This document shows positions 31,777 through 52,215 of a DNA stretch of 64,000 nucleotides, piece by piece. The DNA lies in NCBI RefSeq assembly GCF_002218025.2, contig NZ_AP018681.1:558001-622000 (forward strand). Reading direction: 5' to 3'. The stretch comes from Vibrio casei (GTDB lineage: Bacteria; Pseudomonadota; Gammaproteobacteria; Enterobacterales; Vibrionaceae). A program made the translations under genes and the position numbers. How positions within the stretch are numbered: the first letter of the stretch is position 1; each line of letters starts with the position of its first letter. Under the pieces are notes generated by a model that saw only the letters and a program-made list of their open reading frames with translations, was not told the DNA's origin and did not search any database.

Positions 31777-31827
31777 ATATTAAACTTTTCATGTTATATT
31801 GTAATAATACAGCATGAGGGGCTAATT

Positions 31828-33174: not shown

Positions 33175-33204
33175 TGATCTGCTCCAGCCAGACTGGACAC
33201 TTCA

Positions 33205-34056
33205 TTAAGCGACATTTTGCTGTTCAAAGTTAACAGGGCTTAGATACCCAAGAGCACTGTGCCTTCTTGTCCGATTATAATCAACCTCTATGTACTCGAA
33301 GATCGTTTGACGCATCTGGTCTCTCGTCATAATCGGCTCATATTGGATCGCTTCAACTTTCATCGAATGGAAGAAGCTCTCAACACAAGCATTGTCCCAG
33401 CAGTTTCCTTTCCTACTCATACTTTGCTTTAGATTATAAACAGTTATGAGGTCTCGATAATCTTTTGAGCAGTACTGACTACCTCGATCACTATGAACGA
33501 TAACCTGCTCAGGAAATTCGCGACGGAACAAAGCCATTGATAGAGCATCACAGACCAGCGTAGCCGTCATTCTGGTATCCATAGACCATCCGATTACTTG
33601 TCTTGAGTAAAGGTCAATAATTACTGCCAAGTACAACCAGCCTTCGCTTGTCGCAACATAGGTGATGTCTCCCGCCCATTTTTCATTCGGAGCCGCTGCG
33701 TTAAAGTTCTGAGCCAGCAAGTTTGGAGCAACTGGCATTTGATGCTTGCTGTCTGTCGTGCACTTAAATTTACGTGCCGCTTTCGGCGTTAAATCTTGAC
33801 GCTTCATACTGGCCGCAATGGTTTTCACATTGTGGTTATCACCGCTCTCAGACAGTTCTTTTTGGATTCGCCTTGAGCCATCTCGGCCTTTGCTGTTATC
33901 AAAAGCTTCTTTGACCTTTGTATCAAGCTCTTGGCGAACTGCCTCGCGTTGGCTAGCCTTATGGCGATGTTTAACCCAGTAATAAAACCCACTTCGGGAT
34001 ACCCCGAATACCTTAGCCATACGTACAATATTGAAGTACATCAGGTGTTCGAGCAT
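33205..34056 (-). CDS. IS3-family OrfB DDE transposase (copy A)
   Basis: The 283-residue protein has an HTH_21-like start (VFGVSRSGFYYWVKHR) and an rve core. DDE residues are in WAGDITYVATSEGW, VIVHSDRGSQYC and DNACVESFFHSMK. The protein is identical to copies B, C and E, which indicates recent spread. Confidence 0.9.
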   Translation of the reverse strand: MLEHLMYFNIVRMAKVFGVSRSGFYYWVKHRHKASQREAVRQELDTKVKEAFDNSKGRDGSRRIQKELSESGDNHNVKTIAASMKRQDLTPKAARKFKCTTDSKHQMPVAPNLLAQNFNAAAPNEKWAGDITYVATSEGWLYLAVIIDLYSRQVIGWSMDTRMTATLVCDALSMALFRREFPEQVIVHSDRGSQYCSKDYRDLITVYNLKQSMSRKGNCWDNACVESFFHSMKVEAIQYEPIMTRDQMRQTIFEYIEVDYNRTRRHSALGYLSPVNFEQQNVA

Positions 34057-34070
34057 AAATTCGTAGCAAT

Positions 34071-34355
34071 TTACTTTAGATTTTTCGCGAAGTAGGTGGC
34101 GGCCTTTTTTACAATTTCTAGCTCTTCTGCTTGCTCAGCCAACTGCCTTTTGAGCTTGGCAACCTCTGCGGCTAGCTCTTGTTCTCGCTGACTAGTATTG
34201 GTGTCTTTCTTCGAGTTCTTCCGCCACCCGTAGATTTGAGATTCATGTAAAGAAAGCTGCCTTGCAGCCGCAGCTACTCCCACTCTCTCTGCTAGTTTTA
34301 GGGCTTCTGCTTTAAATTCAGGGGAATGTTTAATTCTAGTTTTCTTAGTTGTCAT
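34071..34355 (-). CDS. IS3-family OrfA (copy A)
   Basis: The 94-residue HTH protein (FKAEALKLAERVGVAAAARQ, QIYGWRKNSKK) ends in a leucine-zipper-like coil. Near its end is the slippery A6G tract (34110-34104, coding sense). A -1 shift there leads through REKSKVNCYEF into OrfB and makes the OrfAB transposase. Confidence 0.88.
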   Translation of the reverse strand: MTTKKTRIKHSPEFKAEALKLAERVGVAAAARQLSLHESQIYGWRKNSKKDTNTSQREQELAAEVAKLKRQLAEQAEELEIVKKAATYFAKNLK

Positions 34356-34529
34356 TGTTCACCTCGTTAGTGATTGTACTCACTTAACTCAGTGTCCAAA
34401 ACAGCTGGAGCGGATCATCCACCATCATTCCGTACTTAGCATTGATCTTCTTGAGTACCTTATTCTTTTCGATAATGGCTTTATTTGTTGGATCAGAAGT
34501 GATCTGCTCCAGCCAGACTGGACACTTCA

Positions 34530-35381
34530 TTAAGCGACATTTTGCTGTTCAAAGTTAACAGGGCTTAGATACCCAAGAGCACTGTGCCTTCTTGTCCGAT
34601 TATAATCAACCTCTATGTACTCGAAGATCGTTTGACGCATCTGGTCTCTCGTCATAATCGGCTCATATTGGATCGCTTCAACTTTCATCGAATGGAAGAA
34701 GCTCTCAACACAAGCATTGTCCCAGCAGTTTCCTTTCCTACTCATACTTTGCTTTAGATTATAAACAGTTATGAGGTCTCGATAATCTTTTGAGCAGTAC
34801 TGACTACCTCGATCACTATGAACGATAACCTGCTCAGGAAATTCGCGACGGAACAAAGCCATTGATAGAGCATCACAGACCAGCGTAGCCGTCATTCTGG
34901 TATCCATAGACCATCCGATTACTTGTCTTGAGTAAAGGTCAATAATTACTGCCAAGTACAACCAGCCTTCGCTTGTCGCAACATAGGTGATGTCTCCCGC
35001 CCATTTTTCATTCGGAGCCGCTGCGTTAAAGTTCTGAGCCAGCAAGTTTGGAGCAACTGGCATTTGATGCTTGCTGTCTGTCGTGCACTTAAATTTACGT
35101 GCCGCTTTCGGCGTTAAATCTTGACGCTTCATACTGGCCGCAATGGTTTTCACATTGTGGTTATCACCGCTCTCAGACAGTTCTTTTTGGATTCGCCTTG
35201 AGCCATCTCGGCCTTTGCTGTTATCAAAAGCTTCTTTGACCTTTGTATCAAGCTCTTGGCGAACTGCCTCGCGTTGGCTAGCCTTATGGCGATGTTTAAC
35301 CCAGTAATAAAACCCACTTCGGGATACCCCGAATACCTTAGCCATACGTACAATATTGAAGTACATCAGGTGTTCGAGCAT
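34530..35381 (-). CDS. IS3-family OrfB DDE transposase (copy B)
   Basis: This 283-residue catalytic subunit has the complete DDE triad and is identical to copy A. No damage is visible, so this copy may be the active source. Confidence 0.9.
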   Translation of the reverse strand: MLEHLMYFNIVRMAKVFGVSRSGFYYWVKHRHKASQREAVRQELDTKVKEAFDNSKGRDGSRRIQKELSESGDNHNVKTIAASMKRQDLTPKAARKFKCTTDSKHQMPVAPNLLAQNFNAAAPNEKWAGDITYVATSEGWLYLAVIIDLYSRQVIGWSMDTRMTATLVCDALSMALFRREFPEQVIVHSDRGSQYCSKDYRDLITVYNLKQSMSRKGNCWDNACVESFFHSMKVEAIQYEPIMTRDQMRQTIFEYIEVDYNRTRRHSALGYLSPVNFEQQNVA

Positions 35382-35395
35382 AAATTCGTAGCAAT

Positions 35396-35680
35396 TTACT
35401 TTAGATTTTTCGCGAAGTAGGTGGCGGCCTTTTTTACAATTTCTAGCTCTTCTGCTTGCTCAGCCAACTGCCTTTTGAGCTTGGCAACCTCTGCGGCTAG
35501 CTCTTGTTCTCGCTGACTAGTATTGGTGTCTTTCTTCGAGTTCTTCCGCCACCCGTAGATTTGAGATTCATGTAAAGAAAGCTGCCTTGCAGCCGCAGCT
35601 ACTCCCACTCTCTCTGCTAGTTTTAGGGCTTCTGCTTTAAATTCAGGGGAATGTTTAATTCTAGTTTTCTTAGTTGTCAT
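35396..35680 (-). CDS. IS3-family OrfA (copy B)
   Basis: This 94-residue HTH subunit is identical in protein sequence to copy A. Its programmed -1 frameshift tract lies at 35435-35429 in coding sense. Confidence 0.88.
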   Translation of the reverse strand: MTTKKTRIKHSPEFKAEALKLAERVGVAAAARQLSLHESQIYGWRKNSKKDTNTSQREQELAAEVAKLKRQLAEQAEELEIVKKAATYFAKNLK

Positions 35681-35832
35681 TGTTCACCTCGTTAGTGATT
35701 GTACTCACTTAACTCAGTGTCCAAAACAGCTGGAGCGGATCAAAGTATCTACACGGTTGTTAATACGGTCTTGAATTGGGAAAGGAATTTGTTTTGTATC
35801 GTATGCGTTCTTGGTCATTTTATAGTCTCTTA

Positions 35833-36114
35833 TTAGATTAGATGATGTTTTTTATATTCGGCTGTAGCGTAATTACTACAACAATCGATCACTTCTCGAT
35901 AGCGGTAGGCATAGCGTTTTATTGTGTCGGGCTTTAAGTTAAAACCTGTGTGCTCAATCACTTGGTCATAGCTTTGATTGATGGATAGTAAAGCGATCAC
36001 TTGCTTTGTTTGCTCGCTCATTCGTGTGTAATCACTACACAAAAAGTAAGCCAATTTCATGGTTTCATCTTGAATATGTATAGCGATCTTGTTTAGTTGG
36101 TCTTGTTCGATCAT
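35833..36114 (-). CDS. Putative small HTH protein of the element
   Basis: The start MIEQDQLNKIAIHIQDE gives 93 residues. A start seven codons upstream has no better site. The central part (QVIALLSINQSYDQVIEHTG, then LKPDTIKRYAYRYREVI) looks like a helix-turn-helix of the sigma-region-4/homeodomain-like type. It precedes the minus-strand remnant by 15 bp, so the two form a leftward operon. It may regulate the element, by inference only. Confidence 0.5.
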   Translation of the reverse strand: MIEQDQLNKIAIHIQDETMKLAYFLCSDYTRMSEQTKQVIALLSINQSYDQVIEHTGFNLKPDTIKRYAYRYREVIDCCSNYATAEYKKHHLI

Positions 36115-36135
36115 GGATACAAATTTATACCTCAT

Positions 36136-37513
36136 TATTGTGTTATAAAGTGACCTCTTAACCCCCTGTTATCCAACTGTCAACTTGTTATTAATCAATA
36201 GGTTACAAGAACACAGGTAACACCTTAAAATCATAAATTCTAAGGTGAAATTGGTATTGAATGGGGAAAGTAAAAGGATCTTGGGGTGTTGAGAGTTTGA
36301 CGCCTACCCCTGTTATCGCTAAAAAGGTAGATTTAAGAGATAAGGCTCTTAATCTTAATGCGTCTTATTATCAATTGTACCATGAATGACAGTTAAATTC
36401 AATAAATTTCAGATTATCTATTGACAGTTATTTATTATTGTGAGCTGTATTGTTGAATATCTAAAATATGGATGTAAGACAATTGTTCTAATACCCATAA
36501 AGGCTAACCCCCAATATCTGAGAATTTACTAAAAATTTTAAAATCAGAGTGAAATTTCGGGGTAACAATGATCATTTTGTGGGGGAAAATATCTGTAGTG
36601 AGGATGTGGGAATTTGGGGGAAATTTAGATTGACTGGCTTAGCTTACCCATATTAGCCCACCCTGTACCCCATAGAACCTCAAAATATCTACTCACCAAA
36701 ACTACATAATCATTCATCATAATATGCACCCTTTAGGGCGATGCCCTCACCTTTCCACACTTCCCCATAAGTTCCTTTTTGTACAAAGTTTTAGCATAAG
36801 CGCACTTGGTATAATCATAGCAAACCCTTATGTATCAATGGTTACAGGCGAATTAGCTAGTGCGTATTATGGTTACTACTACGCATTACACCCATTATGT
36901 AAAATTCGAAAACCGTCTTATCAATAAATCTTACTGAAGTCTGCATATTGTGGGGTAAATGTTGGTGTTTTGTGGGTAAATTTGAATTTGAATTATGTTA
37001 ATAAAACGCACCAAAATGATGCACTGTAAAAACAAGATGATTTCTGGGGAAATGGTGTATTGTTGCTGTAATTTACAATCATTAATTTTATTCATGTTTA
37101 ATGAGTTTATTATTACTTTTGTACATAATCATATCTAGAGTGAAATTTTATTCATATATGGTAAATCGTATATACCCTGTAATGTTATATTATAACAATT
37201 GTATCTTGTGGTGTATAAATCCTTTCTATATGCCACCTTGTAGGCGTTTATGGTGTATATGGCTATAACTACACTAATATATACTTAAAACACTGTATAG
37301 AGGCTATCAGGGGCTTATAGAAAGGATTTATTGTGTTGGAGTATGCCTATTTGGTGTAGGTTTTATTGTAATCCTAGGTTGGTGTACTAGCTAGATAGTA
37401 CAAAGGTGTTGTAATGTTACACTTTTTTGACTTATGAGTCAGGTTTTTAGCGGTAATGTGCAAGTGAATGTTGTTAAATCACTGTTCATCCATACAGTAC
37501 ACTTCACACCCTC
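36136..37513. other. Non-coding AT-rich zone with iteron-like G-rich motifs
   Basis: There is no convincing gene in this 1.4 kb. On the plus strand six copies of a TGGGG(T/A)AAAT-like motif occur at 36559, 36578, 36616, 36951, 36972 and 37045. Two ACCCC(C)TGTTATC boxes lie at about 36162-36175 and 36305-36316. A 67-codon frame at 36724 lacks a ribosome binding site and is not accepted. Iteron-like repeats and high AT content suit a replication origin or a regulatory zone. Confidence 0.45.
37215..37331. repeat. 16-bp perfect inverted repeat with 85-bp spacer
   Basis: ATAAATCCTTTCTATA (37215-37230) is matched by its exact reverse complement at 37316-37331. The spacer holds further short repeats around GTGTATAT and TATAG. 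It could be a replication-protein or recombinase site, or the stem of a long RNA hairpin. Confidence 0.7.
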
Positions 37514-37891
37514 TTATTTACCTATTGCCTTCTTAACCACTGAGAATAAATTATTATCTGGATGTACTGCATTACCATCAATAAACAACATGCCTTCTTT
37601 AAAATCAACTTGAGAAAGGTTTAATTTATTAATGAACTTATAATCCTTATCAAGTTGCCCATTCAAAGTAAGGTTGGTTTTAATACTAGTAAACTGTTCT
37701 TTATTCATATCATATACAAGGGTGATTACATCTAGAGTACCTTCCCAATCATGCTTAGTATAAATTTTTTCAACTTCAAGTAGTCCTCTCTCTTTATCGA
37801 ACTCACAAGACCAACCACACATTTTAAAATAAGAGTACATTTCTTCCAGTTCTTCATACACATTTGACATCAACCTATCTCCTACAATCAA
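37514..37891 (-). CDS. Hypothetical 125-residue protein of the element
   Basis: The frame begins MIVGDRLMSNVYEELEEMYS. MSNVYEELEEM, seven codons in (37870), with GGAGATAGG upstream, is the more likely start. The protein is acidic and mixed alpha/beta in appearance (GWSCEFDKERGLLEVEKIYT, LDVITLVYDMNKEQFTSIK). No motif is recognised. It is the last leftward gene before the divergent rightward genes. Confidence 0.5.
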   Translation of the reverse strand: MIVGDRLMSNVYEELEEMYSYFKMCGWSCEFDKERGLLEVEKIYTKHDWEGTLDVITLVYDMNKEQFTSIKTNLTLNGQLDKDYKFINKLNLSQVDFKEGMLFIDGNAVHPDNNLFSVVKKAIGK

Positions 37892-37952
37892 TCAAACTCT
37901 CACAATACCACCCCAAGCATGACAACAATGTGACCATGTTCTAGCATCATTA

Positions 37953-38034
37953 AATTGTTTTTAGGGGTTAAGTTGCTTATAAAGCCTTATGCAATGGTGC
38001 TTTGTGTTAGCATATTACCTTAATTGATATAATA
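37953..38034 (+). repeat. Two-armed repeat unit 1
   Basis: AATTGTTTTTAGGGGTTA opens the unit, and the closing arm ATTACCTTAATTGATATAAT is the most diverged of the four. It ends 39 bp before the ATG of the small secreted protein at 38074, and its right arm provides a TATAAT box. It may therefore be the promoter of that gene. Confidence 0.6.
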
Positions 38035-38073
38035 GCTGTATGTGGAAGAAAGAATATTGAATAAGGAACTACT

Positions 38074-38259
38074 ATGATCAAACTCACTCTATCTACAATC
38101 TTATTGCTAATGTCTCCTTTAGCCAATGCCTCTCAATGGAAGCTATCCCACGAAATCAACACTAGCGAGACACGGAAGGTTTGTGTATATGAAGATTCTG
38201 ATGGTAATACTAAGCAAGTGGAGCAATCACAAGGGCAATATTGCAGAACGTATTTGTAA
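38074..38259 (+). CDS. Small secreted protein (61 residues) of the element
   Basis: The signal peptide MIKLTLSTILLLMSPLANA is followed by about 42 mature residues with two cysteines in KVCVYEDSDGNTK and GQYCRTYL. AAGGAACTACT precedes the ATG. Small periplasmic proteins with a VCVYE...YC pattern occur in several phages and islands, but I cannot name a function. It lies directly downstream of repeat unit 1. Confidence 0.6.
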   Translation: MIKLTLSTILLLMSPLANASQWKLSHEINTSETRKVCVYEDSDGNTKQVEQSQGQYCRTYL

Positions 38260-38441
38260 ACCTTGTTACTTATAACTTAACCTCGGGACGGGAATCCCGT
38301 CTCAATGAAATCAATAACTTACATAACTTGTTGCTAAGCTATTGATTTTTGAGTAAAACGCAATATTGCAAGTTGTACAATCCTAAATTGGATTCTCTAA
38401 ATTGCGCACATCCTTGATATACCTCATCCGCATAATTTCGG

Positions 38442-38493
38442 AGCAGTCCCAAAAATTGGGTTGTCTAATGTTCACTGCTAACTTTTGAGCAGT
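38442..38493 (+). promoter_or_regulatory. Mutually exclusive hairpins (switch-like)
   Basis: AGCAGT (38442-38447), ACTGCT (38474-38479) and AGCAGT (38488-38493) let the middle segment pair with either outer one. The first option encloses a CCCAA/TTGGG stem. Such three-segment arrangements are typical of attenuators and riboswitch-like leaders. No ligand class is recognised. Confidence 0.4.
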
Positions 38494-38850
38494 CAATCAT
38501 ACACTTACCGTAATTCACCGATAAGGCTTGTATGTCCCTCACGGGCGTTTTAGTATCATAAAAATGCAATTGTATAGGTGAACTATAAAGCGTCTGTATG
38601 TCCCCTCTGGGGATGAACGAAGTTCACCGCTAAAGTGGCTTGTGGGTGTGATTTAGAAAGGGGAGGTAATATAAGAGGGATAGTATCAAGGGTTAATATC
38701 TAAGAGAGTAAATACTACACTAAATCAACCTCGTGTTTTATACAAAACCTCTTGGAAGCATTGGTATATAAAGGTTTGTTGGTATTTATTGTCCTACATA
38801 CTCCCCTACTCTCCCTCTTCCCTCCAATCCTCCTTACCCCTAACTGATTA

Positions 38851-38929
38851 AATTGTTTTTAGGGGTTATAATTATTGCATCCCTTGTAAACAGTAGTGTT
38901 GTGGGTAGGTATTACCCCTATTGATAATA
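38851..38929 (+). repeat. Two-armed repeat unit 2
   Basis: The left arm AATTGTTTTTAGGGGTTAT and the right arm ATTACCCCTATTGATAAT are separated by a non-conserved centre of about 40 bp. TAGGGGT and ACCCCTA are reverse complements, so the arms form a wide inverted repeat. Confidence 0.75.
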
Positions 38930-39016
38930 TAGGAAGAATAATAGAATATATAAGATAGAATTAGATACAGATCCTATTAATCCTTTCCTATATATCAACC
39001 TTTTTCAAAGTGTCTT

Positions 39017-39096
39017 AATTGTTTTTAAGGGTTATAACTTCCACAAACTACCATTGTATAAAGGTTCTAGGGTGATCATTACCCCTATTGATAATA
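39017..39096 (+). repeat. Two-armed repeat unit 3
   Basis: The left arm is AATTGTTTTTAAGGGTTAT and the right arm is ATTACCCCTATTGATAAT, with an unrelated centre of nearly the same length as unit 2. A long GA-rich tract follows immediately. Confidence 0.75.
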
Positions 39097-39200
39097 GAAA
39101 GAGAGAGAGAGAGAAAGAGATAGAAAGAGAGAGTAATATATAATAAGAAGAAGAAGAATATAGAATAGATTGAATAATAGTGTATTTGCTAATCTAACAT

Positions 39201-39279
39201 AATTGTTTTTAAGGGTTATAATGTTGAAGAACCTTTATAGAATGGGGCTTGTAGTGTAATGATTACCCCTATTGATAAG
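39201..39279 (+). repeat. Two-armed repeat unit 4
   Basis: The arms are AATTGTTTTTAAGGGTTAT and ATTACCCCTATTGATAAG. The centre differs from the other units but keeps the arm spacing. A short GAGAGAGA tract follows. Confidence 0.75.
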
Positions 39280-39707
39280 ATAGCGATAATAGAGAGAGAT
39301 ATAAGTATATAGTGTGTTACCACCTATAACCAAACCCGACATTATCAACCATTCTAACCACCATTACAACATTTATTTTAAAAATATTCACCTAAACCCC
39401 TCGATTCTAGTTTATGATATGCTACCAATCAGAATTATTAAGGCGCATATACTACAAATACAATGATATCATCAATCTTATAATGATATTATCCACCATA
39501 AACCAATATACAGTACAAAACTCTAAAATTTGATTTTAAAACAGTTTTATTATATAATACCCTTATAGAGTGAAAAAGTTATTAGTAAATAGCTTTACCT
39601 CCCCTCCGCATTATTAAACATTACCAACCACAACCAGAATTATATTACCTACCCAAGGGTTCTTGCGGTAGTTTTTGTCGTGTCTGCAATTTAGAAAAGG
39701 AATAAAA

Positions 39708-39926
39708 ATGAAACTACCCGATAGTTTAAATATTAATACACTACCTTATATAACCGCTTATCAGTTAACACGCTTAATAGAAGGTAAGCAAAAGCTAGTT
39801 AATTTAACGCAACTTAAAGCTAAACGTAATAAAGCAGGACTTGACGAGGAAGCATTTCAGTTAGGGCTTGCATATTCAATCTTTCGAGAAATCCAGAAGT
39901 ACAATAATAAAGAGGATAACGAATGA
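39708..39926 (+). CDS. Hypothetical 72-residue protein, first gene of the replication-type operon
   Basis: The start MKLPDSLNINTLPYITAYQ has AAAGGAAT upstream and is preferred to the in-frame ATG 11 codons earlier. The protein is helical (TAYQLTRLIEGKQKLVNLTQ). It shares a 4-bp ATGA overlap with the next gene. The family is unknown. Tight spacing with the following genes indicates one operon leading to the polymerase-like gene. Confidence 0.6.
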   Translation: MKLPDSLNINTLPYITAYQLTRLIEGKQKLVNLTQLKAKRNKAGLDEEAFQLGLAYSIFREIQKYNNKEDNE

Positions 39927-40072
39927 ATAAAAAAGACGCTAAACGATTCCAGTTTTTACTATTAAAGTTTTATGATTTTGGATTAACACTAGATGAACAA
40001 TATGAATACGGTTATTTATCCACTGGTAATCCAAACTTTCCAAGCACACCAGAAACTTATTTAAGTTATTAA
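39923..40072 (+). CDS. Hypothetical 49-residue protein
   Basis: The peptide begins MNKKDAKRFQFLLLKFYDFG and ends PSTPETYLSY. Its ATG overlaps the preceding stop, and AGAGGATAACG supplies the ribosome binding site. No family is recognised. Translational coupling supports it as a real gene. Confidence 0.5.
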   Translation: MNKKDAKRFQFLLLKFYDFGLTLDEQYEYGYLSTGNPNFPSTPETYLSY

Positions 40073-40081
40073 GGTAACAAA

Positions 40082-40270
40082 ATGAAAATAAATTTCCCTG
40101 AGCAAGTATGGGCAAAAGTCATGGACTTAACCCAAGAAAACAATATAAGCCCTGTAAAAGTTTTATACATGGCTATCGAATTATTACATAAACAACAAAT
40201 AAAAGGTCAAGCGAATGATGACAGTGCAACACAAGAAAGTAACAGAACAGCCCCAACAATGGTTAAATAG
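40082..40270 (+). CDS. Small protein with a ribbon-helix-helix-like pattern
   Basis: The 62-residue protein begins MKINFPEQVWAKVMDLTQEN, then ISPVKVLYMAIELLHKQQI. A beta strand and two helices fit a ribbon-helix-helix fold, but this is a weak inference. Its 3' end overlaps the start of the polymerase-like gene by 56 bp in a different frame, which suggests coupled expression. Confidence 0.5.
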   Translation: MKINFPEQVWAKVMDLTQENNISPVKVLYMAIELLHKQQIKGQANDDSATQESNRTAPTMVK

Positions 40271-41774
40271 CGTATATTATCCGGCAACAGTAAACAAATT
40301 AAATATAGCCTTTAACGGTGGTAAAAATTACAAACTACATAAACAATACAACAATATTATAAACCTCCTCTTGAGTCACCCTGAAGCCACAGAAAACCAC
40401 AAGACAGCCTGTAAAGTATTTGCTTTCCATTGTGTATTACATGCTAAAAATGGAAATAGCTTTATTATTCCACGCAGAAAAGTAATGTTGGATAACAAGC
40501 ACGAAGAAACCCAAGGACGCACACCAACAGCTTACCAATGGCTACAAGTACAGGATATTGCAGTTCAAAAAGGATTAGGCGAAGTATTTGTAGGTGGTGA
40601 AGATTTCAACGGAAGTTTTTTACCTTCTATTTTTGTTATGTCTCCCATGTTGCTTGATATTATTAAAACAAAAAATGTAGATAAAGCCCCGAGCAAACCT
40701 AAGCAATCACCCAAGGAAAGTATAATTGTATGGGATAGCAACGATAAAAAAACACGCCAACAAATTAAAATTGCAGGATCACGAGAAATCCAAAACAATT
40801 TAAATGTACTCAACAATTTTTTATTAACCAATACATTTAAAACGGATAAAGGGCAAATCATTGATCCAACGATGAAGCGCAGTTTTATTAAAAGTTTTGA
40901 TAACTACGGCAGGTTTTCGCATAGCTATCAAAGCACACCACAGCATATCCGCCAACACATTACTATTAATGGTGAAGCTGTTTGCGAAGGTGATTATTCA
41001 TCTAACCACGCTAGGATTGCTTACGAGCTGGAAAATGTACGAAAGGATGAGGATTTTAAACCTTATTATTTAAGCAAAGAAGATTGTCCTCTTGTTGGTT
41101 CTTCACAAGGTAAACGTGCTATATACAAGCTTGCTATGATGATGCTTTTTAACAGTGGCAACCCTACGCAAAGCTTGTTTAATGACATGGAACAAAAGTA
41201 CAACACTATTGAAAAAAAGAAAAATGATATTCCTGAAAAACTTAAAGTTTATACCACGGTTAACCGCCCTACTATAAAAGATTGTTCAATCATTGTTCAG
41301 GGGTTAAAGAAAGTAAATAGCGAAATCGGGGAATATTTCAAAGGGTGTCAAGCAGGTTACTTACAAAACTTGGATGCAAAGATTGCAGAAAGAATCATGT
41401 TGGACTTAACAGCCCAAGGCATACCATTTCTATGCTTTCACGACAGCTTTATTGTACCTCAGAGCAAAGCATTGCAACTACAGCAAGCTATGCACAAAGC
41501 ATGGGCGGATGTACTTGGATCACAAGATAACTGCATTGTTGATTTTAAATATGGTCACAACCCAGAGCAAGAAACAGAGCAACAGCAAGCGATTGAAGAT
41601 TTGGAACAGCAACACGATTTTGAATATTCAGAAGCCGATCAAGAACTCGAATCATGGGGTTTTGTCAGTGCTGATACATTCCACGAATACGGCTCATGCC
41701 CGACTTGCAATAGTGCATTGAATCAGTGGAGTGATTGCGAGAACGTAGATTGTGATAACTGGCTACCTTTCTAA
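40215..41774 (+). CDS. Single-subunit polymerase-like protein (PolA/T7-RNAP superfamily, HDSF motif)
   Basis: The 519-residue protein carries three active-site motifs in order. Motif A is AVCEGDYSSNHARIAYE (catalytic Asp about 260). The O-helix-like motif B is GKRAIYKLAMMMLFNSG (Arg301 and Lys305 with RxxxK spacing). Motif C is IPFLCFHDSFIVP (His409-Asp410-Ser411-Phe412). HDSF is the form found in phage T7-type RNA polymerases; DNA polymerase I has VHDE. T7 RNA polymerase is about 880 residues, so this is a compact relative lacking the usual N-terminal domain. A zinc-ribbon-like C-terminus (Cys495, 498, 508, 513) is present. It could be a replication polymerase, primase or transcriptase of the element. 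Confidence 0.7.
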   Translation: MMTVQHKKVTEQPQQWLNSVYYPATVNKLNIAFNGGKNYKLHKQYNNIINLLLSHPEATENHKTACKVFAFHCVLHAKNGNSFIIPRRKVMLDNKHEETQGRTPTAYQWLQVQDIAVQKGLGEVFVGGEDFNGSFLPSIFVMSPMLLDIIKTKNVDKAPSKPKQSPKESIIVWDSNDKKTRQQIKIAGSREIQNNLNVLNNFLLTNTFKTDKGQIIDPTMKRSFIKSFDNYGRFSHSYQSTPQHIRQHITINGEAVCEGDYSSNHARIAYELENVRKDEDFKPYYLSKEDCPLVGSSQGKRAIYKLAMMMLFNSGNPTQSLFNDMEQKYNTIEKKKNDIPEKLKVYTTVNRPTIKDCSIIVQGLKKVNSEIGEYFKGCQAGYLQNLDAKIAERIMLDLTAQGIPFLCFHDSFIVPQSKALQLQQAMHKAWADVLGSQDNCIVDFKYGHNPEQETEQQQAIEDLEQQHDFEYSEADQELESWGFVSADTFHEYGSCPTCNSALNQWSDCENVDCDNWLPF

Positions 41775-41844
41775 AACGCATCTAAATAGCTCATATAAGC
41801 GTTTTAACAAATAACAATACTAATACACCTTAATGCACGTAAAT

Positions 41845-41881
41845 AGCCGTGTGGGGCTTCCTACACCCTAGAATCACGGCT
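41845..41881 (+). promoter_or_regulatory. Stem-loop before the next gene
   Basis: AGCCGTG / CACGGCT enclose a second small hairpin (GTGTGGG / CCTACAC). It lies between the polymerase-like gene and the 81-residue gene and could be a processing site, attenuator or weak terminator. Confidence 0.5.
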
Positions 41882-41902
41882 TAATTAAAATAAGAGGATA
41901 CA

Positions 41903-42148
41903 ATGAAACGACAACTAATATTAAATCCAAATAATACTAGATCATTAAATACAATCATTATTAATGATCTTGAATATGTACTCGACAAGTTTGAACTTAA
42001 AAAATATAACCAATATAAAATTGAAGGCAACCCAACAAAGGAAGAGATGTTTCTTATTTGGTTAGAAAATTATCAGACTTTGAAATACAGCATTTATATT
42101 AACTCAAGCCCTAATCACTTACCTTCTAAAATAAAATCTGTAGCGTGA
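41903..42148 (+). CDS. Hypothetical 81-residue protein
   Basis: The frame begins MKRQLILNPNNTRSLNTIII with AAGAGGATACA upstream. It contains EEMFLIWLENYQTLKYSIYI, a helix followed by a strand. No family is recognised. It lies downstream of the stem-loop and upstream of an internal promoter. Confidence 0.55.
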   Translation: MKRQLILNPNNTRSLNTIIINDLEYVLDKFELKKYNQYKIEGNPTKEEMFLIWLENYQTLKYSIYINSSPNHLPSKIKSVA

Positions 42149-42219
42149 ATTATTTGGGTTAAATAACAATCAAACAGAACTTACATAGCAGGTTTTTTAT
42201 ATTAATGCAAGTAAAAGTA

Positions 42220-42248
42220 TTGCATTTTAATCAATTTAATGTTATAAT
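42220..42248 (+). promoter_or_regulatory. Strong sigma-70-type promoter inside the element
   Basis: A -35 box TTGCAT and a -10 box TATAAT are separated by exactly 17 bp, near consensus. Transcription would begin about 42255 and reach the terminator at 42404. Confidence 0.7.
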
Positions 42249-42254
42249 ATACAT

Positions 42255-42404
42255 ATAAGTTAAACATTTTATGTTGTTGCTAGCTTATATTCTGGTAGTA
42301 GTTTGCCTCCCAAAACGTTATTAAAATCTTTACCTCTCTAAAAACTTTGATAACAGTTTATTAAACCCCTGATTTCTCCTTTTTAATCTTGGGGTTTATT
42401 TTTT
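42255..42404 (+). ncRNA. Candidate small RNA (~150 nt) with possible tiny hydrophobic peptide
   Basis: A consensus promoter and a terminator bound about 150 nt without a normal gene. Within it a 17-codon frame (42271-42324) reads MLLLAYILVVVCLPKRY, a hydrophobic peptide with a basic end, but without a clear ribosome binding site. It could be a regulatory RNA, a type I toxin-like peptide or a leader for the genes that follow. Confidence 0.45.
42363..42404 (+). terminator. Rho-independent terminator
   Basis: AAACCCC / GGGGTTT form a stem with a 21-nt pyrimidine-rich loop. It is followed by ATTTTTT. Confidence 0.75.
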
Positions 42405-42547
42405 ACTACTATCTGCAAGATTTTACTTAGCACTAACCTATTTCCCCTTTTTATCTCCTAATTTCTAAAATCTATCTGTAGCTTTGACGTTGGTTTTCTT
42501 CTCCTTGTCCAATGCCAAGGCTACACCCTTTTTTCAAGGAAACACAT

Positions 42548-42757
42548 ATGACACAAAGCCACAAAAGGCGCAAAGTGTACAAGTCAGTAGATCAAGTTTT
42601 AAGTTTACTCCTGAACAATAAGATCAAACTCTCGACTTTATATACCCACCGCCATCGATGCTTGTTTATTTACGGAGACCCCAAACAAGCTGAATTAATA
42701 CAAGAAGCGATTAAATTATATAATAGTTACAATAATATTAAGCACATTAAAATTTAA
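42548..42757 (+). CDS. Hypothetical 69-residue basic protein
   Basis: The start MTQSHKRRKVYKSVDQVLS has CAAGGAAAC upstream. An in-frame ATG 12 codons earlier has no site. The protein is small and basic, with two predicted helices and LFIYGDPKQAELIQEAI. The family is unknown. It is 36 bp from the next gene. Confidence 0.5.
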   Translation: MTQSHKRRKVYKSVDQVLSLLLNNKIKLSTLYTHRHRCLFIYGDPKQAELIQEAIKLYNSYNNIKHIKI

Positions 42758-42793
42758 AAAAAAAACTACCACCAGAAAATAAGAGGTCAGCAA

Positions 42794-43285
42794 ATGACAC
42801 TAGATCAACAACTACAAGAGCAATATCCACATTTCAAAAATCACATTAAAAAAATCCGTGGTGTTTTAGGAAGTATGAAATACCGATGCGGTAAGCATAA
42901 AAGCTACTTGTTTGTTAAATGCGAATTCATCGACATTTGGCAATTCATGGAATTTCTAGAAATTGAACGACAAAGGGGAAGAGATTACACAAAAATAGAG
43001 AATCCTCAAATCGCACGTATTTTTGACGATGGAAATTACACTTTTAATAATTGTCGTGTGATTAGTAAATCCGAAAATATCAAGGAAGCACATAATAAGA
43101 CGATTATTATTTTCGACAGCCTAAATGGTAAAACCTCAATTTTCCGACATGGGATTAAAAACTTTTACAATATTAATAATCATGTTCTCGGTTTTAGTCT
43201 AAATACTCTTTACCGAAAAATCAGAGCAAATAAACCTATTCCAATCGGTGACAAAGGTCACTTTATTAAAGTTTCATTTTTATAA
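42794..43285 (+). CDS. HNH-endonuclease-like/DNA-binding phage protein
   Basis: The 163-residue protein contains GSMKYRCGKHKSYLFVKCEF and, near the middle, IARIFDDGNYTFNNCRVIS followed by KSENIKEAHN. The pattern (R-I-x-D-x-G-N-Y-T-x-x-N-C-R) is the conserved part of phage HNH homing-type proteins. The HNH ligands themselves are not obvious, so it may be a DNA-binding relative without cleavage activity. It lies 13 bp before the capsid-type protease gene. Confidence 0.55.
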   Translation: MTLDQQLQEQYPHFKNHIKKIRGVLGSMKYRCGKHKSYLFVKCEFIDIWQFMEFLEIERQRGRDYTKIENPQIARIFDDGNYTFNNCRVISKSENIKEAHNKTIIIFDSLNGKTSIFRHGIKNFYNINNHVLGFSLNTLYRKIRANKPIPIGDKGHFIKVSFL

Positions 43286-43297
43286 ATAAGGTAAATA

Positions 43298-44335
43298 ATG
43301 ATTACATTACAACAACAAAAAATCAGCAATACCCCACTTCTCGCAACACCCAGTCTCCTTAGCAATGTTAATTCTGTTCTACAAAATCACACTATTGCGA
43401 CCGCCCAACAGAAGCTTGAGGCTGAACAAGAGCGCACCGCAAAGTATAAATCACTTAAAGCTAACCTTCCCGCTAATACTGGCTTGATTCAAATTTCAGG
43501 TATTTTGGTGGCTGGTAGTATGGGAAATCTAGAAGCCTTGTGTGGTATGACAAGCTATCAGTCAATTTTGAATCAAATGTTTGCTTATACACAAAACACT
43601 TCAATTAAGCGTGTACTTCTTCATATCAGCTCGGGAGGCGGTGAAGCGTATAAAGTATTTAGTAGTTGTAAAGAAGTGAAAGACTTAGCACAAAAACACG
43701 GTATTGAACTTGTAGCTTATGCAGACGGAACTTGTGCTTCAGCAGCTTATGCTTGGGCTTCTATTGCAGATCAAATCATTTCACACCCTGAAAGTAATAA
43801 CATCGGGTCAATCGGAGTCGTAATGCAGTTGGTTAACGATAGCAAAGCCCTTGAGCAAAAAGGCTTGGATCGAACTTTCGTGTTCTCCGGTAATTCGAAA
43901 ATACCATTCGATCAAAATGGTGCATTCCGAGCTGACTTCATTAGCGATTTGCAAGCGAAGATTGATGAAACGTACAACACCTTTGTTAATCACGTAAGCA
44001 CTAACCGCAAGATGACCAAGCAAGATGTGATTAAAACTGAAGCTAAAACTTTTACAGCCAAGAAGGCGATGTCCTTGAAACTGATCGATCTTCTGATGAC
44101 TGAATCAGAGTTGTTTGAATACCTAGGTAAGCCGATCATTGGAAGTAAACAGCCAGTATCAGCCCCAACTTCTACCCCTTCAGCTTCAAAAGTCGAGGTT
44201 AAATCGGACATCAAAACAGAACAAGCTACGGAAAAGTTGAGGGATTTACAAAGCATAGTTAAAAAGCGTCTTAATCGGTCTGAAGATGATATCAAGCAGC
44301 AAGCCATTGCCAAACTAAAACAAAATAACTTATAA
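43298..44335 (+). CDS. S49-family serine protease (SppA/phage capsid protease type)
   Basis: The 345-residue protein has the SppA fold. RVLLHISSGGGEAYKVFSSC is the oxyanion-region motif, and YADGTCASAAYAWASIADQI holds the nucleophile Ser. SNNIGSIGVVMQLVND follows, with the Lys base further on (about EQKGLDRTFVFSG or FTAKKAMSLKLID). An N-terminal helical region replaces any signal peptide, so it acts in the cytoplasm. In phages such S49 enzymes mature the procapsid. Its C-terminal Lys/Gln-rich tail could act as a scaffold. Confidence 0.82.
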   Translation: MITLQQQKISNTPLLATPSLLSNVNSVLQNHTIATAQQKLEAEQERTAKYKSLKANLPANTGLIQISGILVAGSMGNLEALCGMTSYQSILNQMFAYTQNTSIKRVLLHISSGGGEAYKVFSSCKEVKDLAQKHGIELVAYADGTCASAAYAWASIADQIISHPESNNIGSIGVVMQLVNDSKALEQKGLDRTFVFSGNSKIPFDQNGAFRADFISDLQAKIDETYNTFVNHVSTNRKMTKQDVIKTEAKTFTAKKAMSLKLIDLLMTESELFEYLGKPIIGSKQPVSAPTSTPSASKVEVKSDIKTEQATEKLRDLQSIVKKRLNRSEDDIKQQAIAKLKQNNL

Positions 44336-44881
44336 AATAAAAGGAATAAAAATGAAATCGTTAAATGACTTTTTGAACGAATACTACAACACCTTAGAAT
44401 TAGAAACTGTAAATCAAGCCGAACTTGATAAGCGCATTAGTAATTATGTTAGTCGCTATGACATTGGTGTGGGTATTGCTAATACAAACCCTACACCAAG
44501 CTTTAGCGAGTTGTGCCTAGATCGCTTTGTATCGGTACAACTACACCAAATGTTAGATCGTGACAAGTTTATTACTTTTTCAAATTACTTGATTGAGAAT
44601 CCTACACACAAAGTTTCTGATGACAATCACCACTTGCATTTTTTTAAACATAATTGGTTGATTTTTGAAAAGTCTGAAGCTGAGCAAGAAGCAGATAAAA
44701 AAGTAATCATCGAACATGTGAAGAAAACTTATCAAGCAGAAGTTGACCAAGCAAACGCTGATTTGTTGGCAGATGAGGAGAAAGCTCTAAGTTCTGCACG
44801 TAAATCACTAGCCAAGTATTGATCCGCTCCAGCTGTTTTGGACACTGAGTTAAGTGAGTACAATCACTAACGAGGTGAACA

Positions 44882-45166
44882 ATGACAACTAAGAAAACTA
44901 GAATTAAACATTCCCCTGAATTTAAAGCAGAAGCCCTAAAACTAGCAGAGAGAGTGGGAGTAGCTGCGGCTGCAAGGCAGCTTTCTTTACATGAATCTCA
45001 AATCTACGGGTGGCGGAAGAACTCGAAGAAAGACACCAATACTAGTCAGCGAGAACAAGAGCTAGCCGCAGAGGTTGCCAAGCTCAAAAGGCAGTTGGCT
45101 GAGCAAGCAGAAGAGCTAGAAATTGTAAAAAAGGCCGCCACCTACTTCGCGAAAAATCTAAAGTAA
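44882..45166 (+). CDS. IS3-family OrfA (copy C)
   Basis: This 94-residue HTH subunit is identical to that of copies A, B and E. The A6G slippery tract at 45127-45133 allows the -1 shift into OrfB. Confidence 0.9.
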   Translation: MTTKKTRIKHSPEFKAEALKLAERVGVAAAARQLSLHESQIYGWRKNSKKDTNTSQREQELAAEVAKLKRQLAEQAEELEIVKKAATYFAKNLK

Positions 45167-45180
45167 ATTGCTACGAATTT

Positions 45181-46032
45181 ATGCTCGAACACCTGATGTA
45201 CTTCAATATTGTACGTATGGCTAAGGTATTCGGGGTATCCCGAAGTGGGTTTTATTACTGGGTTAAACATCGCCATAAGGCTAGCCAACGCGAGGCAGTT
45301 CGCCAAGAGCTTGATACAAAGGTCAAAGAAGCTTTTGATAACAGCAAAGGCCGAGATGGCTCAAGGCGAATCCAAAAAGAACTGTCTGAGAGCGGTGATA
45401 ACCACAATGTGAAAACCATTGCGGCCAGTATGAAGCGTCAAGATTTAACGCCGAAAGCGGCACGTAAATTTAAGTGCACGACAGACAGCAAGCATCAAAT
45501 GCCAGTTGCTCCAAACTTGCTGGCTCAGAACTTTAACGCAGCGGCTCCGAATGAAAAATGGGCGGGAGACATCACCTATGTTGCGACAAGCGAAGGCTGG
45601 TTGTACTTGGCAGTAATTATTGACCTTTACTCAAGACAAGTAATCGGATGGTCTATGGATACCAGAATGACGGCTACGCTGGTCTGTGATGCTCTATCAA
45701 TGGCTTTGTTCCGTCGCGAATTTCCTGAGCAGGTTATCGTTCATAGTGATCGAGGTAGTCAGTACTGCTCAAAAGATTATCGAGACCTCATAACTGTTTA
45801 TAATCTAAAGCAAAGTATGAGTAGGAAAGGAAACTGCTGGGACAATGCTTGTGTTGAGAGCTTCTTCCATTCGATGAAAGTTGAAGCGATCCAATATGAG
45901 CCGATTATGACGAGAGACCAGATGCGTCAAACGATCTTCGAGTACATAGAGGTTGATTATAATCGGACAAGAAGGCACAGTGCTCTTGGGTATCTAAGCC
46001 CTGTTAACTTTGAACAGCAAAATGTCGCTTAA
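45181..46032 (+). CDS. IS3-family OrfB DDE transposase (copy C)
   Basis: This 283-residue catalytic subunit has an intact DDE triad and the C-terminal YNRTRRHSALGYLSPVNFE signature of IS3-family enzymes. Its start codon lies 15 bp after the OrfA stop. Confidence 0.92.
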   Translation: MLEHLMYFNIVRMAKVFGVSRSGFYYWVKHRHKASQREAVRQELDTKVKEAFDNSKGRDGSRRIQKELSESGDNHNVKTIAASMKRQDLTPKAARKFKCTTDSKHQMPVAPNLLAQNFNAAAPNEKWAGDITYVATSEGWLYLAVIIDLYSRQVIGWSMDTRMTATLVCDALSMALFRREFPEQVIVHSDRGSQYCSKDYRDLITVYNLKQSMSRKGNCWDNACVESFFHSMKVEAIQYEPIMTRDQMRQTIFEYIEVDYNRTRRHSALGYLSPVNFEQQNVA

Positions 46033-46423
46033 TGAAGTGTCCAGTCTGGCTGGAGCAGATCATATGAAGCCGATCTTGTTAAAGCTAATAAACCAAACTT
46101 AGAGCAATTTAAGCAACTGGCTACTGTTAAAGCTGAGCTTAGTACCCTTTTGGATGGTATAGCCGAATTTAGCTACGAGGATATTAAAGCTCAATGTTCA
46201 GTGAAAGATAACTCTCTTTTAGTGTCCGCAATGGAAAGCTTGGGTTATTCCAAAGTCAAAAAAGGCACTAAAAACGTATGGGTAAAGGAGGGTGTATGAT
46301 TATTGATTACAACATCGCTCGACAACTCGCCCAAGCAGAACTTCTAAAGACACTCACTCCCTGATCCGCACCAGCAGTTTTGGACACCGAGTTAAGTGAG
46401 TACAATCACTAACGAGGTGAACC

Positions 46424-46708
46424 ATGACAAGCAAGAAAAAACGTATTATCCATTCCCCTGAATTTAAAGCAGAAGCCCTGAAGCTAGCAGAGAAAGTGGG
46501 AGTAGCTGCGGCAGCGAGACAACTGTCGTTACACGAATCCCAGATCTATGGTTGGCGTAAGTCAGCTAAGAGCGACACCAGCACCAGTCAGCGGGAAAAA
46601 GATCTAGCCGCTGAAGTTGCCAAACTCAAACGACAATTGGCTGAGCAAGCTGAAGAGCTAGATATAGTAAAAAAGGCCGCCACCTACTTCGCGAAAAACC
46701 TAAAGTAG
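46424..46708 (+). CDS. IS3-family OrfA (copy D)
   Basis: This 94-residue HTH subunit differs from the other copies at roughly a dozen residues by eye (for example KKKRIIHS and KSAKSDTSTS). The frameshift tract A6G is conserved at 46669-46675. Confidence 0.9.
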   Translation: MTSKKKRIIHSPEFKAEALKLAEKVGVAAAARQLSLHESQIYGWRKSAKSDTSTSQREKDLAAEVAKLKRQLAEQAEELDIVKKAATYFAKNLK

Positions 46709-46722
46709 ATTGCTACGAATTT

Positions 46723-47574
46723 ATGCTCGAACACCTGCTTTGCTTCAGAGTTGCCCGCATGGCTAAGGTGTTCGGTGTTTCACGAAGTGGGTTTTATTAC
46801 TGGATTAAGCATCGCCACAAGGCCATCCAGCGCGAGGTAACTCGCCAAGAGCTTGATACGAAGGTCAAAGAGGCTTTTGATAATAGCAAAGGTCGTGATG
46901 GCTCAAGGCGCATCCAGAAAGAGCTGGCTGAGAACGGTGATAGCCGTAATGTTAAAACCATTGCCGCCAGTATGAAGCGGCAGGATTTAACGCCGAAAGC
47001 GGCACGTAAGTTTAAGTGTACGACGGACAGCAAACATAAAATGCCAGTTGCTCCGAACCTGCTGGCTCAGGATTTTAAGGCAGAGGCTCCGAATCAAAAG
47101 TGGGCGGGAGACATCACCTATGTTGCGACAAGCGAAGGCTGGCTGTATTTGGCGGTAATCATTGACCTTTATTCCAGGCAAGTAGTCGGTTGGTCTATGG
47201 ATACCAGAATGACGGCAACTCTGGTTTGCGATGCGTTATCAATGGCCTTGTTCCGTCGAGGGTTCCCTGAGCAGGTTATCGTTCATAGTGACCGAGGTAG
47301 TCAGTACTGCTCAAAAGATTATCGAGACATCATAACTGCTTATAATCTAAAGCAAAGTATGAGTAGGAAAGGAAACTGCTGGGATAATGCTTGTGTTGAG
47401 AGCTTCTTCCATTCATTGAAAGTTGAAGCGATCCAGTATGAGCCGATCATGACGCGAGACGAGATGCGCCAAACGATCTTTGAATACATAGAGGTTGATT
47501 ATAATCGGACAAGAAGGCACAGTGCTCTTGGGTATCTAAGCCCAGTTAACTTTGAAAATCAAAATGTCGCTTAA
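46723..47574 (+). CDS. IS3-family OrfB DDE transposase (copy D)
   Basis: This 283-residue subunit has the DDE triad (WAGDITYV, VHSDRGSQYC, DNACVESFFHS) intact. Substitutions against the other copies are spread along the protein, which indicates divergence under selection, not decay. Confidence 0.92.
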   Translation: MLEHLLCFRVARMAKVFGVSRSGFYYWIKHRHKAIQREVTRQELDTKVKEAFDNSKGRDGSRRIQKELAENGDSRNVKTIAASMKRQDLTPKAARKFKCTTDSKHKMPVAPNLLAQDFKAEAPNQKWAGDITYVATSEGWLYLAVIIDLYSRQVVGWSMDTRMTATLVCDALSMALFRRGFPEQVIVHSDRGSQYCSKDYRDIITAYNLKQSMSRKGNCWDNACVESFFHSLKVEAIQYEPIMTRDEMRQTIFEYIEVDYNRTRRHSALGYLSPVNFENQNVA

Positions 47575-47714
47575 TGAAGTGTCCAGTCTGGCTGGAGCAG
47601 ATCACCCAGCTCCAAACAATACCTTTTTGAGATGGATATTTATCAAAAGTTGGTAAGTGGCGAGATTAAAGACACAGACACAATTAAACATTACACAGAA
47701 GAGGCATAATAAAA

Positions 47715-47978
47715 ATGATTACTACAGAATATAAGCTAAGCCAAATCAATCAACTCCGTTCTACTATCTTGAAAAATCAACGTGAACTTACGAAATTCGA
47801 AGATAAACAGGTTTTTAGCGACCAAATTGTTTATGACTGGCACAACAACCGATTCGCTCAGCTTAAACCACTAGAAGAACATTACGAGTATTGGCTAAAT
47901 TGGCGAGATGAGTACCTTGAGTGCTTACGAGGTAATATTGTTGCAGATCAAGCAATTTTGGAGGGTATGCTTAAATGA
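47715..47978 (+). CDS. Hypothetical 87-residue element protein
   Basis: The frame begins MITTEYKLSQINQLRSTILK and is rich in aromatic and charged residues (EEHYEYWLNWRDEYLECLRG), consistent with a helical bundle. Its stop overlaps the next ATG by 4 bp. The family is unknown. It lies in the morphogenesis-type operon. Confidence 0.6.
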   Translation: MITTEYKLSQINQLRSTILKNQRELTKFEDKQVFSDQIVYDWHNNRFAQLKPLEEHYEYWLNWRDEYLECLRGNIVADQAILEGMLK

Positions 47979-48421
47979 AATTAATCAAAAAAGAATTTGA
48001 TGATGTTGTTCTTCAAGCTTCAAAGCTGAAACAATCTACTGTAAACATTGAGTTATTCAAACTTAGTAAAATCCTTGTTCCGTGTGTGGGCATCTTGTCT
48101 GATCAAAAAGACAGCCCCGATTTGTACACTATCTTATTTAGTATTGTAGCGCAAAAGTCTTCCGTCGAGCATTTCGAATCATTGCAAACTTTATTGTTAA
48201 GCACTCTAGTGAATGATGATTTAGAGCATATCCAAGATATTGACCAGTATCTTGAAGATAAGGGCATTAATTCTCTTGATGTATTCATGTGGCTGTTCCA
48301 AGCTCAACTAATCCAACCACTGCAATCAACACAAACTTTTAAAGTGTTACAGAGTCACTTTGATGACATCAAGGAAACGTTTTTCCCAAGCTTAGGTATT
48401 ACCCCTACCCCAACGGAGTGA
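47975..48421 (+). CDS. Hypothetical 148-residue element protein
   Basis: The protein begins MKLIKKEFDDVVLQASKLKQ and continues with helical segments such as FSIVAQKSSVEHFESLQTLL and LQSHFDDIKETFFPSLG. It is probably all-alpha. It is in an operon with the genes before and after it (7 bp gap downstream). By position ahead of the tape-measure gene it may be a minor tail or assembly protein, but this is only context. Confidence 0.6.
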   Translation: MKLIKKEFDDVVLQASKLKQSTVNIELFKLSKILVPCVGILSDQKDSPDLYTILFSIVAQKSSVEHFESLQTLLLSTLVNDDLEHIQDIDQYLEDKGINSLDVFMWLFQAQLIQPLQSTQTFKVLQSHFDDIKETFFPSLGITPTPTE

Positions 48422-48705
48422 TATTAAAATGACTACTAATCAATCAGGGGGCTTATCGCCCCCTTTTTTACGGGTGAAGCATCTCCCCACTGTCTACAAA
48501 ATCTTGAATGAAATTGAAGGTAAACCGCTTACAGACATAACCCCAGAGACATATCGAAGCATTCTTGAATTTTTGGAATCGGTACAAATTGAAGGTGGAG
48601 TGTTTGAGAATATCAGTTTATTTTTCGAGTTTATTAAGCCTCTTTATGAGTGCCAATTGTTACCCGATCTACAAACGGATATTAATACTAAGAGATTGAA
48701 TAATC

Positions 48706-52201: not shown

Positions 52202-52215
52202 ATTGCTACGAATTT

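Follow-up and report, generated by a model that had tools for sequence, protein, structure and literature searches.

A ribbon-helix-helix-like gene overlaps a divPolA2 polymerase on a satellite-like element of Vibrio casei and recurs beside part of the divPolA2 family

Within a 64,000-nucleotide (nt) stretch of Vibrio casei (contig NZ_AP018681.1, positions 558,001 to 622,000; hereafter the window), we evaluated a compact polymerase of the divPolA2 family, encoded on an integrated element that we take for satellite-like, together with a small ribbon-helix-helix-like (RHH-like) gene that overlaps the polymerase start. Comparison across loci revealed that such an RHH-like gene repeatedly accompanies the polymerase in part of the divPolA2 family, a conclusion that we consider well supported, and we report the overlapping partner gene as new for divPolA2, as no report of an RHH-polymerase pairing was found in literature searches, judged by titles and the opening of abstracts, or in section 13 of PMC11348598 (supplements not covered). 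With divPolA2 reported in 2024 without a known role, the partner gene, an altered sugar site and the compact carrier elements together pose a two-protein biochemical question. The features of the pair are as follows (aa, amino acids; ORF, open reading frame).

40082..40270, plus strand: 62-aa partner gene of ribbon-helix-helix-like type, its last 56 nt lying within the start of the polymerase gene
40215..41774, plus strand: polymerase gene, 519 aa, PHROG 4756 / divPolA2 (ORF listing, phrog_4756 match, fold of the model)
40341..40733, plus strand: polymerase N-terminal domain, residues 43-173 (secondary structure of the model)
40782..41555, plus strand: palm/fingers core, ~residues 190-447 (VIA-align ranges against DNA and RNA polymerases)
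40986..41024, plus strand: motif A, residues 258-270, with Asp260, and with His265 opposite Glu480 of T7 DNA polymerase
41103..41153, plus strand: O helix, residues 297-313, with R301, K305, M309 and N313
41430..41459, plus strand: motif C, residues 406-415, with H409-D410-S411-F412
41697..41753, plus strand: C-terminal CxxC-x9-CxxxxC cluster, residues 495-513 (C495/C498/C508/C513), in a tail common to the second copy of the element

We examined 30 loci at the polymerase 5' end, with phage loci picked from match lists for spread and one locus (L029, a truncated gene beside IS21) dropped, and an RHH-like small ORF, judged by eye, was present in 17 of them. Fourteen of these ORFs overlap the polymerase by 26-59 nt and three stop 33-117 nt upstream, and a mechanical overlap test returned 14/30 polymerase genes versus 14/146 other ORFs of at least 120 aa in 25 of those loci. 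One such RHH-polymerase pair is ORF99-ORF100 of phage ICP1. Mapping the RHH label onto a tree of 48 polymerases, in which 18 database proteins without known context count as unlabelled, required 4 changes versus a shuffled mean of 14.2 (0/500 shuffles as low), and among the rows with context the label fell on 12/14 in the window half of the tree, 5/5 in the ICP1 group and 0/11 elsewhere.

Evaluating the partner ORFs further, we built a profile without the window ORF, and among 729 sequences it placed that ORF at the top (E 2.1e-4, with 0.071 for the best decoy); in leave-group-out runs a left-out member ranked first in 7 of 11 groups. Against the PDB, a profile of 14 of the 17 ORFs (L035, L042 and L046 excluded) matched AvtR (2e-4), HmvA (3e-4), ORF56 (0.024), CopG (0.055), CdbA (0.25) and Arc (0.8), all of which we take to be RHH proteins, although designed proteins also match it (best k-cTRP5 at 0.0023), which is a caveat on the RHH assignment. 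The window ORF itself weakly matched 'transcriptional regulator' in PHROGs (0.022), and a single-sequence model of its protein (mean confidence, pLDDT, of 74) has an extended N-terminus followed by helices 7-20 and 24-41; by profile and model, it likely fits a strand-helix-helix of ~45 residues related to CopG and Arc. In the protein collection, the 62-aa ORF had a single homologue, a near-identical entry that is probably the window's own.

Several of these results count against a guiding RHH partner. The partner is not universal, since 13/30 loci were without a recognisable RHH ORF, including that of AUR84708, the published divPolA2 representative from Vibrio phage 1.063.O, and leave-group-out runs failed in 4/11 groups (the L032/L035/L039/L041 group, L025, L042 and L040). 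Pfam held no match to the window ORF and, over the 14 partner ORFs, gave one of them a weak FitA-like RHH match (0.011) and some others weak matches to unrelated families, and the Foldseek neighbours of the 62-aa model, which include MatP, ORF56, Arc and CopG, held none below E 0.5. Separately, three RHH-less loci (L036, L038 and L043) have helical ORFs of 57-63 aa upstream of the polymerase that resemble, by eye, an 81-aa ORF of the window at 42512-42757.

The polymerase is almost certainly a family A core (palm/fingers) behind an unrelated N-terminal domain, and we regard its family and fold as secure. As the original prediction had placed it, the 519-residue frame runs from ATG to stop at 40215-41774 (+). 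It is matched by phrog_4756 (unknown function) at E 1.9e-57 over residues 39-443, and because AUR84708 falls in the same phrog_4756 (2.3e-91), the polymerase belongs to divPolA2; a single direct BLASTP comparison of the two gave 20% identity over 265 columns (E 8e-6). Yutin et al. described divPolA2 in 2024 in barbaviruses and other phages of gammaproteobacteria, without exonuclease or known thumb, modelled AUR84708, and offered repair DNA polymerase or RNA polymerase as options (PMC11348598). The original prediction, which put the enzyme on a mobile element and named no product, needs amending in that the family had already been described. Other libraries returned little: Pfam at E up to 1 gave a sole match (Rhodanese_C, E 0.14, 12.9 bits, below the cut-off of 26.9), NCBIfam none at E up to 1, the polymerase sequence (P0001) none against the PDB at E up to 10, and a profile of its relatives (A1) four PDB matches at chance level.

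The AlphaFold2 model superposed on both family A DNA polymerases and single-subunit RNA polymerases with nearly equal Z, and its VIA-align ranges mostly begin near residue 160 and end at 443-449 for both kinds. This agrees with the predicted place in the PolA/T7 RNA polymerase superfamily, and the outcome named as refuting it, a model without a palm/fingers fold, did not occur; Asp260 would adjoin Asp410, judging solely by superposition of the model. Against viral models, the top 11 matches ranged from E 5.8e-28 to 2.6e-16, the twelfth reaching only 1.5e-6, and three of the 11 are named, being proteins of Aeromonas phages 2L372X and 4L372D and Rheinheimera phage Barba31A. The N-terminal part is separate in the model, and our guess is that its helix/strand order may resemble a winged helix; a profile of this domain (18 slices of 48 rows) had no PDB match under E 0.068, and in Pfam gave scattered weak matches only, HTH_36 and HTH_34 included. 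At the other end, the four cysteines of the predicted zinc-ribbon-like cluster are present, with low pLDDT over them, and were seen by eye in the window protein, P0003, P0009, P0011 and the second copy of the same genome, but the cluster is absent from P0002, the nearest relative, and so is not a family trait.

Counting conservation over an alignment of 48 polymerase relatives revealed a retained catalytic site with altered residues at the sugar-selection positions. R233 (which sits in strand 227-235 of the model), R246, D260 and D410 are invariant (48/48), R301 and K305 are kept in 47/48 and H409 in 44/48, so that the motif A Asp, O-helix RxxxK and motif C HDSF of the original prediction were all found and are conserved. 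The position of Pol I Glu710 is His in 44/48, that of Phe762 is Phe in 0/48 (Met in the window polymerase), the HDE motif reads HDS in 41/48, and the Tyr766/Tyr639 position is Asn in 37/48. By this alignment, the residues with which Pol I keeps ribonucleotides out are lost, which we report as new. CCPol, an A-family polymerase that in its assays primed only with deoxynucleoside triphosphates (dNTPs), retains both E710 and F762 (PMC7581432).

These residues bear on a reading, which we hold doubtful, of a very small single-subunit RNA polymerase with the RHH protein as its promoter-recognition subunit, the pair transcribing phage or element genes. The window polymerase shares with the single-subunit RNA polymerases (T7, mitochondrial) an HDS-type motif C (T7), a non-Phe O helix, the catalytic-core fold as modelled and an equal structural similarity, but it has 519 aa versus 883, Asn for the O-helix Tyr, and no match to the Pfam RNA polymerase family at E up to 1. 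It also lacks a counterpart of T7 RNA polymerase Tyr639 or His784. Moreover, all 50 PDB chains listed by Foldseek for the model are DNA polymerases, the best 10 by E-value all being apicoplast DNA polymerase, and Shewanella phage KASIA has an annotated RNA polymerase besides its divPolA2 gene. A T7-like RNA polymerase label taken from HDSF alone was rejected, because Pfam gives it no support and the structural scores cannot tell RNA polymerases from DNA polymerases; a profile-profile comparison with small sets decides nothing between the two, because its best stretches (T7-type RNA polymerase at motif C, E 0.088; PolA/T7 DNA polymerase at motif A, E 0.091) are both weak. In KASIA (L027:1-6666), we observed an annotated primase, the separate RNA polymerase, an AAA ATPase and the divPolA2 gene close together.

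For the working of the pair, our preferred reading is that it synthesises short strands for replication, and transcription comes second; it seems to us quite possible, if short of probable, that this is an RHH-guided polymerase making short, possibly RNA, strands to start replication of the element. The 62-aa RHH protein would dimerise and bind a site on the element DNA, and would there recruit the co-translated polymerase as a complex delivered to that site. Through two-metal catalysis at Asp260/Asp410, the polymerase might then make short primers, perhaps out of ribonucleotides, and from these short strands the element DNA could be copied. In favour of this reading stand the family assignment, the conserved catalytic residues, the partner gene that recurs in part of the family, the changed residues at the sugar-selection positions, the setting on integrated elements that have an integrase and, in copy 2, a replication-initiator-like gene, and the precedent of CCPol-MP. 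The objections from the polymerase side are that all of the listed Foldseek chains are DNA polymerases, that Asn at the Tyr766/Tyr639 position and Gln384 match neither DNA nor RNA polymerase, that AUR84708 resembles a DNA polymerase in keeping Glu opposite His265 and in reading FDE where the others have HDS, and that the element has no recognised helicase gene. In addition, ICP1 already possesses a helicase-primase (Gp57) and a Pol I (Gp58), which should make a second primase superfluous; no RNA polymerase is predicted for this phage (PMC9040626).

A wider form of the proposal, in which RHH-divPolA2 is a two-gene, DNA-site-guided RNA-synthesising enzyme (a small RNA polymerase or RNA primase with the RHH protein as promoter- or origin-recognition subunit) common to large marine phages such as ICP1 (ORF99-ORF100) and to satellite-like elements that swap it as a cassette, appears possible but rather doubtful. 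If RNA were made at chosen sites, the pair would be a minimal guided polymerase, and ICP1 and other well-studied phages would hold an unrecognised transcription or priming enzyme. The recurrence of the pairing in large marine phages may show what divPolA2 does.

A second, colinear copy of the element lies on the same contig (C2 ~498,028-515,519; L013:18144 to L014 ~15519), without the insertion sequence (IS) insertions of copy 1 and with another integrase, of other PHROG families than the copy 1 serine recombinase, at another site. Colinear proteins are 65-99% identical between the copies and the coding backbone mostly 77-88% (96% at 53098-54145), but the polymerases are just 25% identical (466 columns, E 8e-26). 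Nucleotide similarity ends at 38841 and resumes at 41632, inside polymerase codon 473, and the segment between holds two further small ORFs.

38842..41631, plus strand: swapped segment, without a blastn match in copy 2 at E 1e-5
39675..39926, plus strand: 83-aa small ORF of the swapped segment (ORF listing)
39923..40072, plus strand: 49-aa small ORF directly upstream of the partner gene (mechanical ORF)

Because similarity resumes inside codon 473, the exchange took in the small ORFs, RHH gene and polymerase core and left out the cysteine tail; integrase and polymerase are both swapped on a common backbone. Such an in-place swap in sister elements of one genome makes a clean natural polymerase exchange outside lytic phages. 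Swaps of phage DNA polymerases are described, with defence avoidance or replicon incompatibility as proposed drivers (PMC11348598), and the swap bears on a reading in which the polymerase performs no processive synthesis and acts as a replication-incompatibility or anti-competitor factor, a role that would lead to its being swapped between sister elements. That two colinear elements in the same genome carry polymerases swapped in place fits this role, but both catalytic Asp residues are invariant (48/48), which an inert factor would not need, and we hold it very improbable.

Gene spacing within the swapped segment, along with the active site, bears on another alternative, in which an accessory DNA polymerase repairs DNA or fills gaps and the RHH protein does no more than repress its own operon. 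RHH proteins are commonly repressors, AUR84708 has residues like those of DNA polymerases in its motifs A and C, the listed Foldseek chains point the same way, and some phage records hold two polymerase copies. The carrier phages also have a main DNA polymerase (barbaviruses, PMC11348598; ICP1 Gp58, PMC9040626), and Yutin et al. name repair as an option (PMC11348598). Nevertheless, we judge this reading unlikely: the Glu710 and Phe762 counterparts are gone in nearly all members, the element has no other polymerase-sized unassigned ORF and host repair is at hand (the host's own PolA lies on C1), and only 9 nt separate the 49-aa ORF from the RHH gene, so that no operator lies directly upstream of the RHH gene in the window.

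Compared with AUR84708, the window polymerase shares PHROG 4756, the family A core and both Asp residues, but differs in its overlapping RHH ORF, His265 and HDS motif, and also in its cysteine tail and its place on an integrated satellite-like element. Published divPolA2 phages also have a main DNA polymerase, whereas this element has no second unassigned ORF of polymerase size; such company characterises those phages and not the protein itself. The TV-Pol family (Iyer et al. 2008, PMC2579912) likewise has a compact family A core on mobile elements, with a hairpin Arg, two Asp and RxxxK, found in the window polymerase as R233, D260, D410 and R301/K305; some TV-Pols occur with serine recombinases and part of the published ones without helicase. 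TV-Pol differs in that no D5-type helicase was recognised by the window polymerase and the thumb coiled coil was not recognised; a sequence link to a known TV-Pol was likewise not obtained, a profile (A3) run against Microcystis phage Ma-LMM01 giving no match, an empty result that proves nothing. CCPol-MP and the PolA-SSB primases also combine a family A polymerase with a small adjacent partner on an integrated element with a serine recombinase, and CCPol-MP primes DNA (PMC7581432, PMC10061031), but its partner is an OB-fold single-stranded DNA-binding protein whereas the window partner is RHH-like by profile with two helices in its model, and the E710 and F762 of CCPol are His and Met here, with no helicase recognised.

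Members of divPolA2 are rare in bacterial genomes: phrog_4756 was found in 2/227 genomes of the genus and 5/369 of the class, and profile A1 in 3/296 of the family, each count including the genome itself. A protein search yielded 16 proteins including the polymerase itself (closest at 56% identity) and a profile search three more, the named sources being Vibrio alginolyticus, V. cholerae, V. vulnificus, Brevundimonas and an unassigned gammaproteobacterium. By tblastn, relatives occurred in 86/50,697 phage records, none covering 80% of the query, with Vibrio, Aeromonas, Pseudoalteromonas, Pseudaeromonas and Shewanella among the hosts; as queries, the distant members P0013 and P0012 found 159 and 281 phage records, respectively, the P0012 set including 113 Rheinheimera. 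Scans of viral contigs and genome contigs confirmed no relatives, and literature searches found the term divPolA2 only in the Yutin et al. paper and its preprint, no mention of phrog_4756, and for ICP1 gp100 only a match concerning another phage. An order relative (G697, C1:376948-377538, L066) has a second PolA-like open frame of 449 aa (DNA_pol_A, 57 bits) besides its main PolA.

The mobile element named in the original prediction has its ends set by empty sites in relatives, and from its sequence we take it for a discrete integrated unit with its own integrase, that is, a satellite-like element, the shared decay of a larger prophage being less likely. Its features in copy 1 follow.

31778..54480, no strand assigned: whole element, copy 1, with IS copies inserted in it (ends from two relatives whose sites are empty)
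31828..33177, plus strand: large serine recombinase, the element integrase (library matches)
41903..42148, plus strand: 81-aa conserved ORF downstream of the polymerase, 86% identical in copy 2
42512..42757, plus strand: 81-aa conserved ORF, 79% identical in copy 2
42794..43285, plus strand: HNH endonuclease-like gene (phrog_2081, E 1.6e-6)
43298..44335, plus strand: S49 head maturation protease-like gene (PF01343, 4.4e-24; phrog_53, 5.8e-71)
47975..48421, plus strand: tail assembly chaperone-like gene, weak (phrog_29715, 7.9e-4)
53045..54394, plus strand: tape-measure-like gene, 3' part (phrog_2854, 3.4e-10; copy-2 homologue 562 aa)

Both insertion sites are empty in two relatives (G245 and G030), and within them the flanks of copy 1 share 7 nt and those of copy 2 (~17.5 kb) share 20 nt. 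IS insertions break three backbone genes of copy 1, including the tape-measure-like gene, whose 5' part lies at 51139-51888. Both the RHH gene and the polymerase gene have open frames. Pairs of IS3-like ORFs, judged by eye, and an IS66 transposase crowd this copy at 33205-35680, 44882-46032, 46424-47574, 48779-50230 and 51917-53067. Copy 2 carries a replication-initiator-like gene (phrog_270, 4.5e-10), and its four ORFs of at least 300 aa are the integrase, polymerase, S49 protease and tape-measure-like protein, with none unassigned. No terminase, portal, capsid or packaging genes were recognised in the copy-2 ORF list and a PHROG scan of ten copy-2 proteins. Phage satellites such as PLE and PICI are the basis for comparison here; the element shares with them a terminal integrase, a discrete unit (copy 2), the lack of recognised capsid or packaging genes and few morphogenesis-related genes, but unlike them carries polymerase, head-protease-like and tape-measure-like genes, the latter two of which might re-size a helper capsid and tail.

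Neighbours of the polymerase in two other genomes (G117 and G211) matched the element only in the polymerase, the remaining G211 matches falling outside it, and literature searches on satellites found no paper that, going by titles and the opening of abstracts, deals with this element. No convincing iterons were found in 35736-38841, and Rfam gave nothing at gathering scores over 31000-56000. A 1.8-kb stretch with few ORFs, 35736-37521, is 95% identical to the second copy, above most of the coding backbone, and is perhaps an origin or a recent conversion. Best matches of the S49 protease include Pseudomonas phage M1, Acinetobacter phages and Vibrio phage S4-7, with 115 Rheinheimera records matching, and phages M1 and S4-7 carry the polymerase too. 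The HNH-like gene at 42794-43285 lies close to the swap boundary, a position that would fit, as nuclease genes are reportedly linked, in one paper (PMC10448857), to phage gene-exchange boundaries.
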